Positions 1,592 to 5,595 of a DNA stretch of 7,313 nucleotides are shown here, piece after piece; position 1 is the first letter of the stretch; every line of letters begins with the position of its first letter. The translations under genes were made by a program, and so were the position numbers. The notes beneath the pieces were generated by a model. It was not told the origin of the DNA and did no database searches. It worked only from the letters and a program-made list of their open reading frames with translations. The DNA lies in assembly GCA_027028665.1 (NCBI GenBank), contig JALVIU010000366.1, positions 1 through 7,313 of the forward strand, given 5' to 3'. This DNA is from Candidatus Atribacteria bacterium (GTDB lineage Bacteria; Atribacterota; JALVIU01).

Positions 1592-1954
1592 ATGGGTGCT
1601 CGCGTATTAGTTGTGGATGATGCTGCATTTATGAGAATGATGATAAAAAATATCCTTACAAGTAATGGATATGAAGTAGTGGGAGAGGCAGAAAATGGAG
1701 TACAGGCAGTTGAGAAGTACAAGGAATTGAAGCCTGATCTTGTTACTATGGATATTACTATGCCTGAAATGGACGGTATAACGGCTGTAAAGGAGATAAA
1801 AAAGATAGACCCAAATGCAAGAATTATCATGTGTAGCGCAATGGGTCAACAATCGATGGTAATTGAAGCAATTCAAGCAGGGGCTAAAGATTTCATAGTA
1901 AAGCCATTTAATCCGCAGAGGGTCTTAGAGGCTGTAGAAAAGGCCCTTTCTTAG
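1592..1954 (+). CDS. cheY: Chemotaxis response regulator CheY
   Basis: This is a stand-alone receiver domain of 120 residues, the normal length for CheY, with no output domain. It accepts phosphate from CheA and then binds the flagellar switch (FliM). The acidic pocket is D9-D10, the phosphoacceptor is D54 (in M-D-I-T-M-P), the switch hydroxyl is S82, and the conserved Lys is K104 followed by P105. The rotating aromatic position is F101 where E. coli CheY has Tyr; from memory, Phe is also found in some Gram-positive-type and Thermotoga CheY proteins. The gene starts three bases after cheA and ends ten bases before the HD-GYP gene, so it is cotranscribed with both. A CheY partner to the P2 domain of the upstream CheA is the simplest reading. 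Confidence 0.96.
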   Translation: MGARVLVVDDAAFMRMMIKNILTSNGYEVVGEAENGVQAVEKYKELKPDLVTMDITMPEMDGITAVKEIKKIDPNARIIMCSAMGQQSMVIEAIQAGAKDFIVKPFNPQRVLEAVEKALS

Positions 1955-1964
1955 TTAAAGTTAT

Positions 1965-3053
1965 ATGAGATGGATTTCTTTAAGATTTGCCAAACCGCAT
2001 ATGCGTTTGGCAAAATCTATTTTTGGATCAGATGGTAGAGTGCTTCTTGCAGCAGGTACTGAACTAAATGAACGGTTTATAAATCGTCTTATAGAGCTTG
2101 GTATAAATGGTGCATATATTGAAGATGGAATCACTGAAGATGTATTGGTTGAGGATGTAATATCTGATAGAACAAGGCTTGAAGCAATACATACAATAAG
2201 AAGTATTATGGAAGATATAGATCTTGAGAAGTGTGTAGATGAGGAGGCAAGGGAAAAGGTAAAGGTAGACCTTGCAAGAAGTGCTGTTTCTAAAATCCTT
2301 GATGACTTAAGTTTAAACAGGGATCTTATTGTAAGTTTGTTAGATCTTAGGACATATAATGACTATACATTTTCACACTCTGTAAATGTTACTATCTTAT
2401 CCCTTGTACTGGGAGTAGCTTTATCACTTAATGAGCTTGAAATAAGGGATTTGGGTATCGGAGCTCTTCTTCATGATATAGGGATGGCAAGGATCCCAAA
2501 GAAGATGTATCTAAAGCCGGGACCCCTTACAAAAAGAGAATATGAAATAATAAAAGAGCATCCAAAGATAGGTTTTGATTTATTGAAATGGAATCAGGAC
2601 ATAAGCCTGGTGGCTGCCCATATTGCCTACCAACACCATGAGAGAATGAATGGGTCTGGATATCCAAGAGGTCTTCCGGGAGAGAGGATTCATAGATTTG
2701 CCCAGATCGCCATGGTTGCTGATGTGTATGATGCCTTAACATCAGATCGTTCTTATCGAAAAAGGGTACTACCTCATGAAGCTGTAGAATACCTAATGGG
2801 TGGTGCAGGCACCCTTTTTAGTTTAAAAGTGGTTGAAGTGTTTGTAAAACATGTGGCAATATATCCCATAGGCGTAATGGTAAGGTTAAATACAGGAGAA
2901 AAGGGGGTGGTTGCAAAAATTAATAAGCCGCTTCTGGCACGTCCTGTCGTAAAAATAATATATGATAAAGATGGAAATCTTCTAAAAGAACCCAAAATGG
3001 TAGATCTGTCGAAAGAATTTACATTATCTATAGTAGAGGTGTTGGAAGGTTAG
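1965..3053 (+). CDS. HD-GYP domain protein, probable c-di-GMP phosphodiesterase
   Basis: This is a 362-residue cytoplasmic protein without membrane segments. The N-terminal ~60 residues match the leader common in HD-GYP proteins (K-P-x-M-x-L-A-K followed by a D-G-R-V-L-L strand), which supports the ATG at 1965. Residues ~130-300 form the HD-GYP domain. It has H138 (S-H-S-V-N), H170-D171-I172-G173, H199 (K-E-H-P), H219, H224-H225-E226, then G230-S231-G232-Y233-P234 and D253 in V-A-D-V-Y-D-A-L. All metal-binding and GYP residues are present, so it is predicted to hydrolyse cyclic-di-GMP to pGpG or GMP. The C-terminal ~60 residues (from I302-G303) form a small beta-rich extension often seen after this domain. 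No receiver domain is fused, but cheY lies directly upstream. The start lacks a clear Shine-Dalgarno sequence and is followed by a hairpin within the coding sequence. Confidence 0.93.
   Translation: MRWISLRFAKPHMRLAKSIFGSDGRVLLAAGTELNERFINRLIELGINGAYIEDGITEDVLVEDVISDRTRLEAIHTIRSIMEDIDLEKCVDEEAREKVKVDLARSAVSKILDDLSLNRDLIVSLLDLRTYNDYTFSHSVNVTILSLVLGVALSLNELEIRDLGIGALLHDIGMARIPKKMYLKPGPLTKREYEIIKEHPKIGFDLLKWNQDISLVAAHIAYQHHERMNGSGYPRGLPGERIHRFAQIAMVADVYDALTSDRSYRKRVLPHEAVEYLMGGAGTLFSLKVVEVFVKHVAIYPIGVMVRLNTGEKGVVAKINKPLLARPVVKIIYDKDGNLLKEPKMVDLSKEFTLSIVEVLEG
1983..2024 (+). repeat. Terminator-like inverted repeat inside the HD-GYP gene
   Basis: Bases 1983-2000 and 2001-2018 are inverted copies. 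AGATTT (1983-1988) pairs with AAATCT (2013-2018), GCCAAAC (1989-1995) with GTTTGGC (2005-2011), and the centre is GCATATGC. Only one bulged C (1996) and one extra A on the right arm break the symmetry. A T-run (2020-2024) follows almost at once, as in an intrinsic terminator. It covers codons 7-18 of the HD-GYP gene. Part of the symmetry comes from codons for the conserved K-P-x-M-x-L-A-K motif, so regulation is only an inference. Confidence 0.45.
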
Positions 3054-3096
3054 CCAATATTATATTAGTGTTTTTATATTTTTAATAGGGCTTTTA

Positions 3097-3804
3097 TTGG
3101 GGAGTTTTTTTAATGTTTGTATACATAGGATTCCAAAAGGTGAATCTATAATATATCCCCCTTCTCATTGTCCCAATTGTAACATGCCTCTTAAGTTCTA
3201 TGATAATATACCTATTATGAGTTACATATTTCTTAAGGGAAAGTGTAGATATTGTGGGACGAGGATTTCACCTACTTATCCTATTGTAGAATTTCTAACC
3301 GGTTTTTTATATTTTTTATCGTATATGTATTTTGGAAAAAATTTATGGATATTTATTTCATCTACAGTCTTTATTTCATTTCTTATAATAATAACGTTTA
3401 TTGATCTCAGACATATGATTATTCCTGATATTGTAGTATATCCTGCAATTACCATAGGTCTTTTAATATCACTATTTAAAGGATATGAATTTTTATTTGA
3501 TAGTGTTTTGGGTGGTATAATTGGGGGATTTACTATATTTTTAATTATCTTTTTAAGCAGAGGAGGTATGGGGATAGGTGATATAAAGCTTGCTACTATG
3601 ATAGGTATATTTTTAGGTGTGAATTATATTATTATGGCACTTATTCTTTCCTTTATCATAGGTGGATTTATTGGTATATTCCTCCTTTTGCTCAAAATAA
3701 AGAAACGAAAAGATCCTATACCTTTTGGCCCTTTTCTCAGCATAGGCGCCATTCTATCACTTTTTTGGGGAAATATAATTGGAAAGATATGGGGGTGGTA
3801 TTAA
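3097..3804 (+). CDS. pilD: Type IV prepilin peptidase (A24 family, PilD/ComC/GspO-like)
   Basis: This is an integral-membrane aspartic peptidase that cleaves, and usually N-methylates, prepilins of type IV pili or type II secretion systems. Numbering from TTG 3097: the opening G-S-F-F-N-V-C-I-H-R-I-P-K-G motif is followed by the four-cysteine loop C25-x2-C28 and C50-x2-C53. Catalytic D103 lies in F-I-D-L-R, and D162 lies in the GxGD motif G-I-G-D-I-K-L. Several hydrophobic helices cover the rest. TTG 3097 is the first canonical start in frame and has a weak AGGG six bases upstream. However, the frame is open back to 3037 and the bases from ~3064 encode I-S-V-F-I-F-L-I-G-L-L, the first membrane segment expected in this family. 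The real protein probably begins further upstream, at a rare codon such as ATT 3064, or after a homopolymer error. The end abuts the ATPase gene. Confidence 0.9.
   Translation: MGSFFNVCIHRIPKGESIIYPPSHCPNCNMPLKFYDNIPIMSYIFLKGKCRYCGTRISPTYPIVEFLTGFLYFLSYMYFGKNLWIFISSTVFISFLIIITFIDLRHMIIPDIVVYPAITIGLLISLFKGYEFLFDSVLGGIIGGFTIFLIIFLSRGGMGIGDIKLATMIGIFLGVNYIIMALILSFIIGGFIGIFLLLLKIKKRKDPIPFGPFLSIGAILSLFWGNIIGKIWGWY
3794..3798 (+). promoter_or_regulatory. Ribosome binding site of the DnaB-like ATPase gene
   Basis: GGTGG, in a G-rich run from 3791, ends 7 bases before ATG 3806. It favours that ATG over the in-frame TTG at 3779, which would overlap the prepilin peptidase gene further and has no upstream purine-rich site. 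Confidence 0.55.
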
Positions 3805-3805
3805 T

Positions 3806-4930
3806 ATGCAATTATCAGTGCTTGATAAGGCACCAAAACCAATCTCTCAAGAGATTTATAATATATTTTCAGATCTTAAAGAGAGGGAAAGTAGGAATGT
3901 AGATAAAGAACTTTTAGGATTTTCAATAACACCTTTTGATATCCTCAATGAGACCATATCTGGTATAAGACCAGGGTTTTATTATGGTATAGCAGGGGCA
4001 CCTCGTAGAGGAAAGACTAATCTTACTCTGGAAGTTGGCCTCCTTGTGGTAAAAAATAATAAGATTCCCGTGCTTTTTTATTCATGGGAGCAGACACGAA
4101 AAGTTCTTGTCTCAAGGCTTTTATCCAAAAAAAGTGGTATACCTCCTGCTGTAATATTAGGAGAAAATATATATAAAAGGCCTGAACTTAGAGAAAAGCT
4201 CAGCAAGGCAAAAGAAGAGCTTTCTGAGATAGCAGATTGGTTTTATATGATTGAGGCAGGAAGAATGCATACTATCCCCCGTATCAGAGAAGATGCTATG
4301 CGTATAATGGATGAGAAAAAGACAGATAAGATTGCTATTTTTATAGATTATTTGCAAAAAGTACCGCCAGAGAAGCCTGTGCAGGATATGTCCTATCGAA
4401 TAGATGATATATCCGCAGGACTTGCAGAGCTTAGTCTGGAGCTTGAATCCCCTGTATTTGCTATTTCTTCTTTGAATAAAGAGGGACTTAAGCTGGATGA
4501 GATGGAGGATGATTCCCGTCCTACTATGCATCACTGCACAGGGAGCGGGGATCTTGAATATGACCTTGATGTAGCTATGGTACTTTCCAAGGACTGGCTT
4601 GATACAAAGAGCCTGAAGAAGCAAATAGATGAAAGACTCAAGGCTCAGGGTATTGATCCTTATTCATATCCTATGTCTCGTATAGATATAATCAATATGT
4701 TCATAGATAAAAATAGAGATGCTATCCCTGGTATATCTGATACAATTCAATATTTGTTTTTTATAGATCAAAATATGTTTTTAGAAGTAGGGTATAAGCT
4801 CCCCATTGAGATGGATCCTTCTAAATTCAACAGATATGTAAAGATAGAAAAGATCATAGATAATTTGATAGATAGGGGCTTGATATTTCAGGACCTTGAA
4901 GAATGGAAAAAGAAAAATTTAAAGGTATAG
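3806..4930 (+). CDS. DnaB/RecA-like ATPase without the DnaB N-terminal domain
   Basis: This is a 374-residue soluble protein whose core (about residues 35-325) follows the motif order of the DnaB helicase C-terminal domain. Walker A is G64-A-P-R-R-G69-K70-T71-N. The catalytic Glu is E95 in F-Y-S-W-E, like F-S-L-E-M of DnaB. Walker B is I-F-I-D181-Y-L-Q. The strand F-A-I-S-S222-L-N corresponds to DnaB S-Q-L-N, with Ser in place of the usual Gln. G246-S-G-D-L-E-Y-D-L-D-V-A-M-V-L matches the DnaB S-G-x-I-E-x-D-A-D segment. K302-N-R304-D resembles the K-N-R-x-G motif. Only ~35 residues precede the core, so the DnaB N-terminal (primase-binding) domain is missing, and it is not the replicative helicase. 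The ~50-residue C-terminal tail is unassigned. The gene lies between a prepilin peptidase and a sigma factor, overlapping the latter. Its function is unknown: it could be a nucleic-acid motor, or a KaiC/FlaH-like regulator. Confidence 0.85.
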   Translation: MQLSVLDKAPKPISQEIYNIFSDLKERESRNVDKELLGFSITPFDILNETISGIRPGFYYGIAGAPRRGKTNLTLEVGLLVVKNNKIPVLFYSWEQTRKVLVSRLLSKKSGIPPAVILGENIYKRPELREKLSKAKEELSEIADWFYMIEAGRMHTIPRIREDAMRIMDEKKTDKIAIFIDYLQKVPPEKPVQDMSYRIDDISAGLAELSLELESPVFAISSLNKEGLKLDEMEDDSRPTMHHCTGSGDLEYDLDVAMVLSKDWLDTKSLKKQIDERLKAQGIDPYSYPMSRIDIINMFIDKNRDAIPGISDTIQYLFFIDQNMFLEVGYKLPIEMDPSKFNRYVKIEKIIDNLIDRGLIFQDLEEWKKKNLKV

Positions 4931-5595
4931 AATCTTTTTTTCCATTAGTGGAAAAGATCGCTCGAAAGTATACTTTCTCTGGTGTAGAATTTGAGGATCT
5001 AAAGCAGCAAGGTATGTTAGGTCTTGTAGAAGCATTCGAAGCATGTGATCCAGACAGGAAAAAGACATTGACTGCATTTGCTATGAGATATATAGAGGGT
5101 GCGATAAAACATTATATAAGAGATAAGAGCACTCTTATTCGCTATCCAAGGTGGTTTAAGGCGCTTTCTAAAAAGATAGAAAACTTTATAGTGGAATTTC
5201 AAGAAAAATACAATAGATTCCCCAATATCAAGGAGATAAGTGATGCACTTAATGTACAAAAAGAGGGTATAAGGGAGTTTTTTAGACTGAAAAAGATTCT
5301 ATATTTACAATACTTTGAAGAGGGAGAAAGCGAAGAAAATATAGACTATAACCAACTTAGGGCAAAGATAAAACATAATAGATATGAAAGTTTTAAACTT
5401 CCTATAGAGGATGTAATTACACTTTATAATGCTATTGATAAACTCTCAGATCTTCAAAAAAGGATTGTTTATTATATCTTCTTCCGAGGTTATACACAAA
5501 AGGAGACGGCTAAAGAGGTAGGAATATCCCAAAGACATGTATCCCGAATAAAAAAAGAAGCGCTGAAAAAGCTAAAAGGAGAGTTAAAGGACTAA
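4903..5595 (+). CDS. Sigma-70 family sigma factor (FliA/SigB-SigF type)
   Basis: This is a 230-residue alternative sigma factor that directs RNA polymerase to a dedicated promoter set. Region 2 spans about residues 12-80: D32-L-K-Q-Q-G-M-L-G-L is the core-binding helix, and A60-M-R-Y-I-E-G-A-I-K-H-Y-I-R-D is the -10 recognition helix. Region 3 is at about 90-135 (R-F-P-N-I-K-E-I-S-D-A-L). Region 4 is at about 175-226, with a helix-turn-helix in T198-Q-K-E-T-A-K-E-V-G-I-S-Q-R-H-V-S-R-I. There is no region 1.1, and the length fits group 3 factors such as FliA, WhiG, SigB and SigF. The chemotaxis context favours a flagellar (FliA-like) role, but the I-R-Y-P-R segment after region 2.4 is closer to SigB/SigF types, so no symbol is given. 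It starts inside the ATPase gene (28-base overlap), without a strong ribosome binding site, which suggests translational coupling. Confidence 0.92.
   Translation: MEKEKFKGIESFFPLVEKIARKYTFSGVEFEDLKQQGMLGLVEAFEACDPDRKKTLTAFAMRYIEGAIKHYIRDKSTLIRYPRWFKALSKKIENFIVEFQEKYNRFPNIKEISDALNVQKEGIREFFRLKKILYLQYFEEGESEENIDYNQLRAKIKHNRYESFKLPIEDVITLYNAIDKLSDLQKRIVYYIFFRGYTQKETAKEVGISQRHVSRIKKEALKKLKGELKD

Follow-up and report, generated by a model that had tools for sequence, protein, structure and literature searches.

The window, a stretch of 7,313 nucleotides, is an entire contig (C366) of a genome assembly that comprises 413 contigs and 1.79 Mb and is 90% complete. Its genes all lie on the forward strand in the order cheA, cheY, HD-GYP, prepilin peptidase, ATPase, sigma factor, and amino-acid ABC transporter genes (Table 1). 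A possible ribosome-binding site (GGGGGTGG, positions 3791–3798) lies ahead of the ATPase open reading frame at 3806–4930; scans of the window for promoters and terminators returned results near chance level.

Table 1. Genes of the window and functional sites of the ATPase, in window coordinates
Feature	Positions	Strand	Remarks
CheA, incomplete at contig edge	2–1588	+	Profile match; best matches in same phylum
CheY-like response regulator	1592–1954	+	cheY homologues adjoin cheA in relatives
HD-GYP-type protein	1965–3053	+	PF13487, 2.3e-28
Prepilin peptidase (PilD, A24), directly upstream of ATPase gene	3049–3804	+	PF06750, 1e-34; PF01478, 5.7e-20
DnaB-paralogue ATPase (linker helix and RecA-type core, without N-terminal domain)	3806–4930	+	374 amino acids, ATG start
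Segment aligned with DnaB linker helix, residues 10–30	3833–3895	+	Family alignment; AF2 helix 13–30
Walker A GAPRRGKT, residues 64–71	3995–4018	+	K70 invariant in 57/57 family members
Catalytic Glu E95 in YSWEQT	4088–4090	+	57/57 family members
Walker B D181-Y-L-Q (I-D-Y-L-Q in window protein)	4346–4357	+	D181 in 57/57
S222 at DnaB sensor Gln position	4469–4471	+	Ser/Pro/Ala in 57/57 of family; Gln in 25/26 DnaB
T245-G246-S247-G248 at ssDNA-contact loop R-E-S-G of DnaB	4538–4549	+	Alignment; DnaB residues from PMC6391071
K302-N-R304, Lys and Arg fingers (D-K-N-R)	4709–4717	+	56/56 members covering site
Sigma-70 family factor (SigB/F/G-like)	4903–5595	+	Overlaps ATPase gene by 28 bases

PilD is the sole type IV pilus (T4P) gene adjoining the ATPase in the window itself; the motor genes pilB, pilT, and pilC lie together on another contig of the genome (C157). 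The prepilin peptidase frame contains no ATG, GTG, or TTG before position 3097. Starting at 3097 would cost the protein most of its first membrane helix; the gene either begins with a rare start codon or contains a wrong base. The sigma factor is of the SigB/F/G type and scores under the family cut-off. FliG was unmatched in the 90% complete assembly, even though CheA and CheY are present. Relatives in the same phylum carry cheA and cheY followed by genes of flagellar-operon sizes, a comparison of sizes without annotation. Because T4P motor genes are present and FliG was not matched, the Che genes of the source organism may serve surface motility.

In profile searches, the window ATPase matched the DnaB core but scored far under the DnaB cut-off. 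Residues 42–305 matched Pfam DnaB_C (PF03796) with E=3.9e-30, and the DnaB N-terminal model went unmatched in the Pfam search. The score against TIGR00665, the DnaB equivalog model, was 103–106 bits and did not reach the cut-off of 385.25 bits. At E≤1, neither the KaiC-type model PF06745 nor any RadA model was matched, and the Pfam search gave no match to T2SSE, the family of the PilB/PilT ATPases, which also form rings and are gene neighbors of the ATPase in several lineages. A role as a defense-system component was rejected, since no PADLOC model matched better than E=0.0078.

An earlier reading of this DNA, made from the sequence only, had described Walker A, catalytic Glu, Walker B (I-D-Y-L-Q), and K-N-R motifs in DnaB order, a Ser (S222) at the position of the sensor Gln, and a location within a motility/sigma operon. 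Each of these observations stands: all four motifs are present, the position of S222 is occupied by Gln in 25 of 26 DnaB controls, and the gene lies between prepilin peptidase and sigma factor, downstream of cheA-cheY-HD-GYP. The same reading had counted only about 35 residues before the core and hence no DnaB N-terminal domain (NTD). That domain is indeed absent, but the short stretch is not featureless, as it includes the segment that aligns with the DnaB linker helix. In DnaB, this helix packs against the neighboring subunit.

The sequence-only reading also called for comparison with DnaB, KaiC, RadA, and FlaH. An AF2 model of the window protein, built from 15 sequences and of modest confidence (mean pLDDT 66.5), found its nearest solved folds among DnaB-type ATPase domains (Z 21.7, 251 residues, rmsd 3.2). 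T4 gp41, T7 gp4, Twinkle, RadA (Z 16.6, 197 residues), and KaiC (Z 15.2) came next. The comparison places the protein nearer to DnaB than to KaiC or RadA, and the absence of ArlH (FlaH) from the list of structural matches proves nothing. The RecA-type core is shared with RadA/Sms; however, the window protein contains no zinc finger, Lon-like tail, or RadA family match.

The window ATPase clearly belongs to a distinct and coherent family of DnaB paralogues. Among 57 aligned members, core identity to the window protein is 44–55%, compared with at most 26% for DnaB. A scan of 84,980 species genomes yielded 17 loci at 42–52% identity, and a profile made from 15 sequences added ten genomes out of 386, each at E≤5e-160. 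The boundary is sharp, as no genome in the domain-wide survey scored between E 5e-160 and the limit of 1e-60. The gene is present in 36 of 43 searched genomes of the phylum of genome G125, to which L034–L037, L039, and L049 belong; their own records say Armatimonadota, Bacillota, or unassigned. It is also present in 30 of 39 searched genomes of the G305 phylum; the phylum of G133 is represented by a single genome. In a core tree rooted with DnaB, 50 family sequences form one clade with a support of 0.957 and a long stem, and the window protein lies inside this clade on a lone long branch. The other members score about 105–157 bits against TIGR00665, far under the DnaB cut-off.

Members are recognized by the signature GAPRRGK[TS], [FY][ST]-x-EQ, DY[LI]Q[KR], [KR]EG in place of the Q-motif, G-[SG]-GD-[IL]-EYD, and DKNR. 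The window protein bears every one of these motifs, most of which occur in 52–57 of the 57 members by strict pattern. Three of them (GAPRRGKT, YSWEQT, and DYLQ[KR] in the form considered here) set the family apart from DnaB. The family is apparently undescribed: no description of it was found in the papers searched on DnaB-like proteins with type IV pili, and the words helicase and RecA are absent from a review of PilB cofactors. Its genes probably receive automatic names such as 'replicative DNA helicase' or 'DnaB-like', and names of this kind would conceal it.

The other family members are about 500–800 amino acids long and share with DnaB (TIGR00665, PF03796/PF00772) a three-part architecture of NTD, linker helix, and RecA-type core. 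Aligned with hhalign, they match DnaB over the full length (416 columns, probability 100%), NTD included, and the N-terminal part of the L036 model superimposes on the solved DnaB NTD (1b79) with Z 13.6 and rmsd 2.4 over 101 residues. Because a DnaB-like NTD is present in every other member, its absence is particular to the window copy and is not a family trait. Most members in a set formed by the G305 phylum and L069 (L070, L071, L153–L167, and L069) have two C-x-x-C motifs in the N-terminal part, probably a zinc ribbon, and some have a long, low-complexity linker rich in Pro, Ser, and Gly.

Examination of gene neighborhoods revealed repeated linkage to type IV pili. In the G125 phylum, T4P genes adjoin the family gene in 20 of 25 loci, either as motor genes on its flanks or as a neighboring pilD. 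The motor arrangement begins with pilB, divergent or upstream, and continues with the family gene, pilT, and pilC, in many cases with another pilB-like ATPase gene before pilT; pilin-like genes come last. A sigma factor lies within several kb of the family gene in many of these T4P-linked loci. At L150, the genes after the family gene encode a prepilin peptidase and a protein that carries a pilin methylation motif. PilB is encoded a few genes on from the family gene in G133 (L069), and a PilB homologue lies at a similar remove of a few genes in family f260 (L153, L154). With the PilD of the window counted, the family gene stands beside T4P genes in four lineages. One of the neighbors in f260 is unusual in itself: the gene at 4484–7618 of L153 encodes a 1044-amino-acid protein in which a PilB-type ATPase (MshEN and T2SSE) is fused to a C-terminal HATPase_c domain of the histidine-kinase type, and L154 has a 1046-amino-acid PilB match at the corresponding position.

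The survey of homologue neighborhoods proposed in the sequence-only reading thus returned a mixed answer, with repeated T4P linkage on one side and lineages that lack it on the other. No such linkage was found in the Acidobacteriota loci, in the Caldiserica-type family f20 with the Caldiserica locus L040 (where the neighbors are germane, amidohydrolase, and PGM), in the accB/accC lineage, in five G125-phylum loci of family f254, or in most of the G305 phylum. Six Acidobacteriota loci (L041–L044, L046, and L048) place the family gene near enolase, a calcineurin-like phosphoesterase, and paired dynamin-like GTPases. In f126 loci L160, L161, L164–L167, and L071, a conserved protein of 580–640 amino acids with weak TPR matches is encoded directly 3' of the ATPase gene, and an Omp85 gene often lies divergent upstream. 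This TPR protein was considered as a conserved downstream partner and rejected; it was found at the seven f126 loci of the G305 phylum and as one weak match, with no counterpart in the other lineages tested.

The presence of pili in the same genome carries little information. PilB-type ATPases occur in 23 of 23 tested genomes, and T4P motor ATPases in 14 of 14 genomes of the control family rings; motors are so common that co-occurrence is weak evidence. As for adjacency, the G125-phylum loci owe their linkage to common descent and were treated as a single case. At 4% per lineage, chance linkage in four of nine lineages (P of about 0.0003) or three of nine (P of 0.0045) would be unusual, but these values are rough and post hoc, as the lineages were defined after the data were seen and PilD falls outside the background. 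That background is an upper bound, with about 1.5–5% of each genome lying within 5 kb of a T2SSE gene.

The ATP site of the family is intact. None of the 57 members departs from the Walker A Lys, catalytic Glu, or Walker B Asp, and the 56 that extend over the finger sites all have the Lys and Arg there; DnaB has the same residues at these positions. The sites that would couple hydrolysis to DNA are different. The sensor Gln of DnaB, which lies in S-Q-L-[SN]-R (25 of 26 controls have the Gln), is replaced by Ser in 31, Pro in 25, and Ala in 1 of the 57 members. In Geobacillus DnaB, R381, E382, and G384 contact phosphates of ssDNA (PMC6391071). The family has Thr (17), Val (15), Lys (15), or Met (9) at the position of R381 and an invariant Gly at that of E382, so that the R-E-S-G loop of DnaB reads x-G-[SG]-G; the window protein has T245 and G246 there and retains only the Gly (G384). 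These substitutions suggest that translocation on DNA has been lost. They fall short of proof because H. pylori DnaB has Lys-Asp at the Arg-Glu contact position and the DNA contact of E382 is made by its backbone amide (PMC8421360). Family members could still bind DNA, since 15 of them have Lys at the position of the contact Arg, as does H. pylori DnaB.

Gene order leads us to favor, tentatively and with somewhat less than even confidence, a role for the family ATPase as an accessory ring ATPase that serves type IV pili. We infer a model in which the linker helix and RecA-type core would assemble into a ring that binds and hydrolyzes ATP between subunits, as the invariant catalytic residues and trans fingers imply. 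Hydrolysis would no longer be coupled, in the manner of DnaB, to walking on ssDNA. Instead, the ring may bind to the PilB/PilT motors, or control these motors or the way they are assembled, a direction of action that is itself conjectural. In the source organism, the che/HD-GYP/PilD/sigma operon would be a surface-motility regulon, because T4P motors are present and FliG was not detected. The sequence-only reading had suggested that the protein may act on surface appendages or sigma activity rather than in replication. The first half of this suggestion is encouraged by recurrent T4P linkage and a separate dnaB. It is tempered by the lineages without linkage (the Acidobacteriota, the Caldiserica-type family, and most of the G305 phylum), and we put the pilus role forward as a proposal. 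Regulation of sigma activity comes down to adjacency: the window and one other phylum have a sigma factor near the ATPase gene.

The archaellum offers a parallel. It contains ArlI, a PilB-type ATPase, and ArlJ, a PilC homologue, and the KaiC-like ring ATPase ArlH, which works on ArlI, is encoded among them (PMC8978795). Family members of the G125 phylum are likewise RecA-fold ATP-binding proteins encoded among pilus-type motor genes. However, ArlH is of the KaiC type, does not hydrolyze ATP, and autophosphorylates (PMC8978795), whereas the family is of the DnaB type with a complete hydrolysis site. The comparison with FlaH drawn in the sequence-only reading is a fair one as far as position and class of fold go, and does not extend to family. 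The protein is best read as a non-replicative ring ATPase, one that probably assists the pilus motor in the way that FlaH/ArlH serves the archaellum.

Pilus linkage would also be explained, given that type IV pili take up DNA, if the family ATPase processed DNA during natural transformation or repair, as a ring akin to RadA or DnaB that handles the incoming strand. The DnaB-like fold is there in full, RadA is described in one source as a bacterial helicase with a transformation role in Firmicutes (PMC11612176), and the backbone could still make the contacts of E382 and G384 alongside the Lys retained by 15 members. We nonetheless consider such an activity unlikely: the sensor Gln is lost in 57 of 57 members, the R-E pair is changed in every member that covers it, and the recurrent neighbors are motor ATPases, prepilin peptidase, and pilins, with no competence gene recognized beside the ATPase in the selection of neighbors scanned at annotated loci.

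Near-universality in two phyla, of the kind expected of a core gene, is what might be seen if the family were instead a general cellular regulator, whether a KaiC-like signaling ATPase or a housekeeping chaperone, and its pilus linkage incidental and lineage-specific. Metabolic or housekeeping neighbors elsewhere (enolase, PGM, EF-P/accB/accC, and adenylosuccinate synthetase) are consistent with this interpretation. It must, however, accommodate T4P genes that adjoin the family gene in four lineages with different arrangements, above the rough chance estimate, and we regard it, too, as improbable.

The window copy is exceptional in ways that raise the question of whether its missing NTD reflects damage rather than design. 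Only 66 residues precede its P-loop, compared with at least 204 in every other member measured (a count that leaves out the 515-amino-acid L149, whose P-loop is RRGKS), and it is the only copy among 50 genomes of its phylum, a lone occurrence that suggests acquisition or repeated loss. Decay or mis-assembly of a normal member would leave such a protein. The gene is, however, an open frame with an ATG and a possible ribosome-binding site, its spacing is that of a natural operon (the prepilin peptidase stops at 3804, the ATPase starts at 3806, and the sigma factor starts inside the ATPase 3' end), and every catalytic residue is intact. Moreover, the tetranucleotide composition of the window correlates at 0.86–0.94 with three contigs of its own genome and at no more than 0.84 with 13 others, and the ten best matches of its CheA outside its own genome are all in the same phylum; these properties make a mis-binned contig unlikely as well. 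A damaged or wrongly assembled copy is therefore, in our judgment, very unlikely.

Pfam and NCBIfam name the window ATPase DnaB-like, yet that it is an ordinary replicative helicase, or one from a mobile element, is hardly credible in view of its distance from the DnaB cut-off (103–106 against 385 bits), the altered DNA-coupling residues of the family, a separate dnaB in the same genome, and a search of phages, plasmids, and viral contigs in which nothing beyond generic DnaB was found. The sequence-only reading had advised a search for that second gene, which was found: contig C110 (G000:C110) encodes a full-length DnaB that scores 572 bits against TIGR00665, above the cut-off, so the window gene, which has no NTD, is not the sole dnaB. 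The same pairing recurs in the family, whose gene is a second gene beside a true dnaB. A DnaB above the TIGR00665 cut-off accompanies it in 19 of 23 tested genomes, a divergent full-length DnaB (1e-88 to 1e-93) takes that place in three, and in one, G397, no DnaB was found. The earlier reading had also allowed that homologues might prove to be mainly prophage or plasmid helicases. Searches of 50,697 phage and 72,556 plasmid records gave no close relative, just generic DnaB at about 26–31% identity, and a scan of viral contigs gave no relative; a phage or plasmid origin was rejected on these results. Thus, of the two outcomes that the sequence-only reading had named as refuting it, neither was obtained. 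A cellular, non-replicative family of DnaB paralogues is the best reading of these results.

The usual view of DnaB is that of a motor dedicated to replication. A bolder and somewhat unlikely version of the pilus proposal is that bacteria recruited a DnaB-derived ring ATPase as a regulator or switch of the T4P motor, a counterpart of FlaH/ArlH that would have evolved independently from a replicative helicase and that, in the window organism, would also have shed the helicase NTD. If an accessory role in pili is correct, a widespread paralogue with an intact ATP site, rebuilt DNA coupling, and a location in pilus operons would represent a replicative helicase turned to another job. The family would then be a concrete candidate for an unrecognized component of type IV pili.
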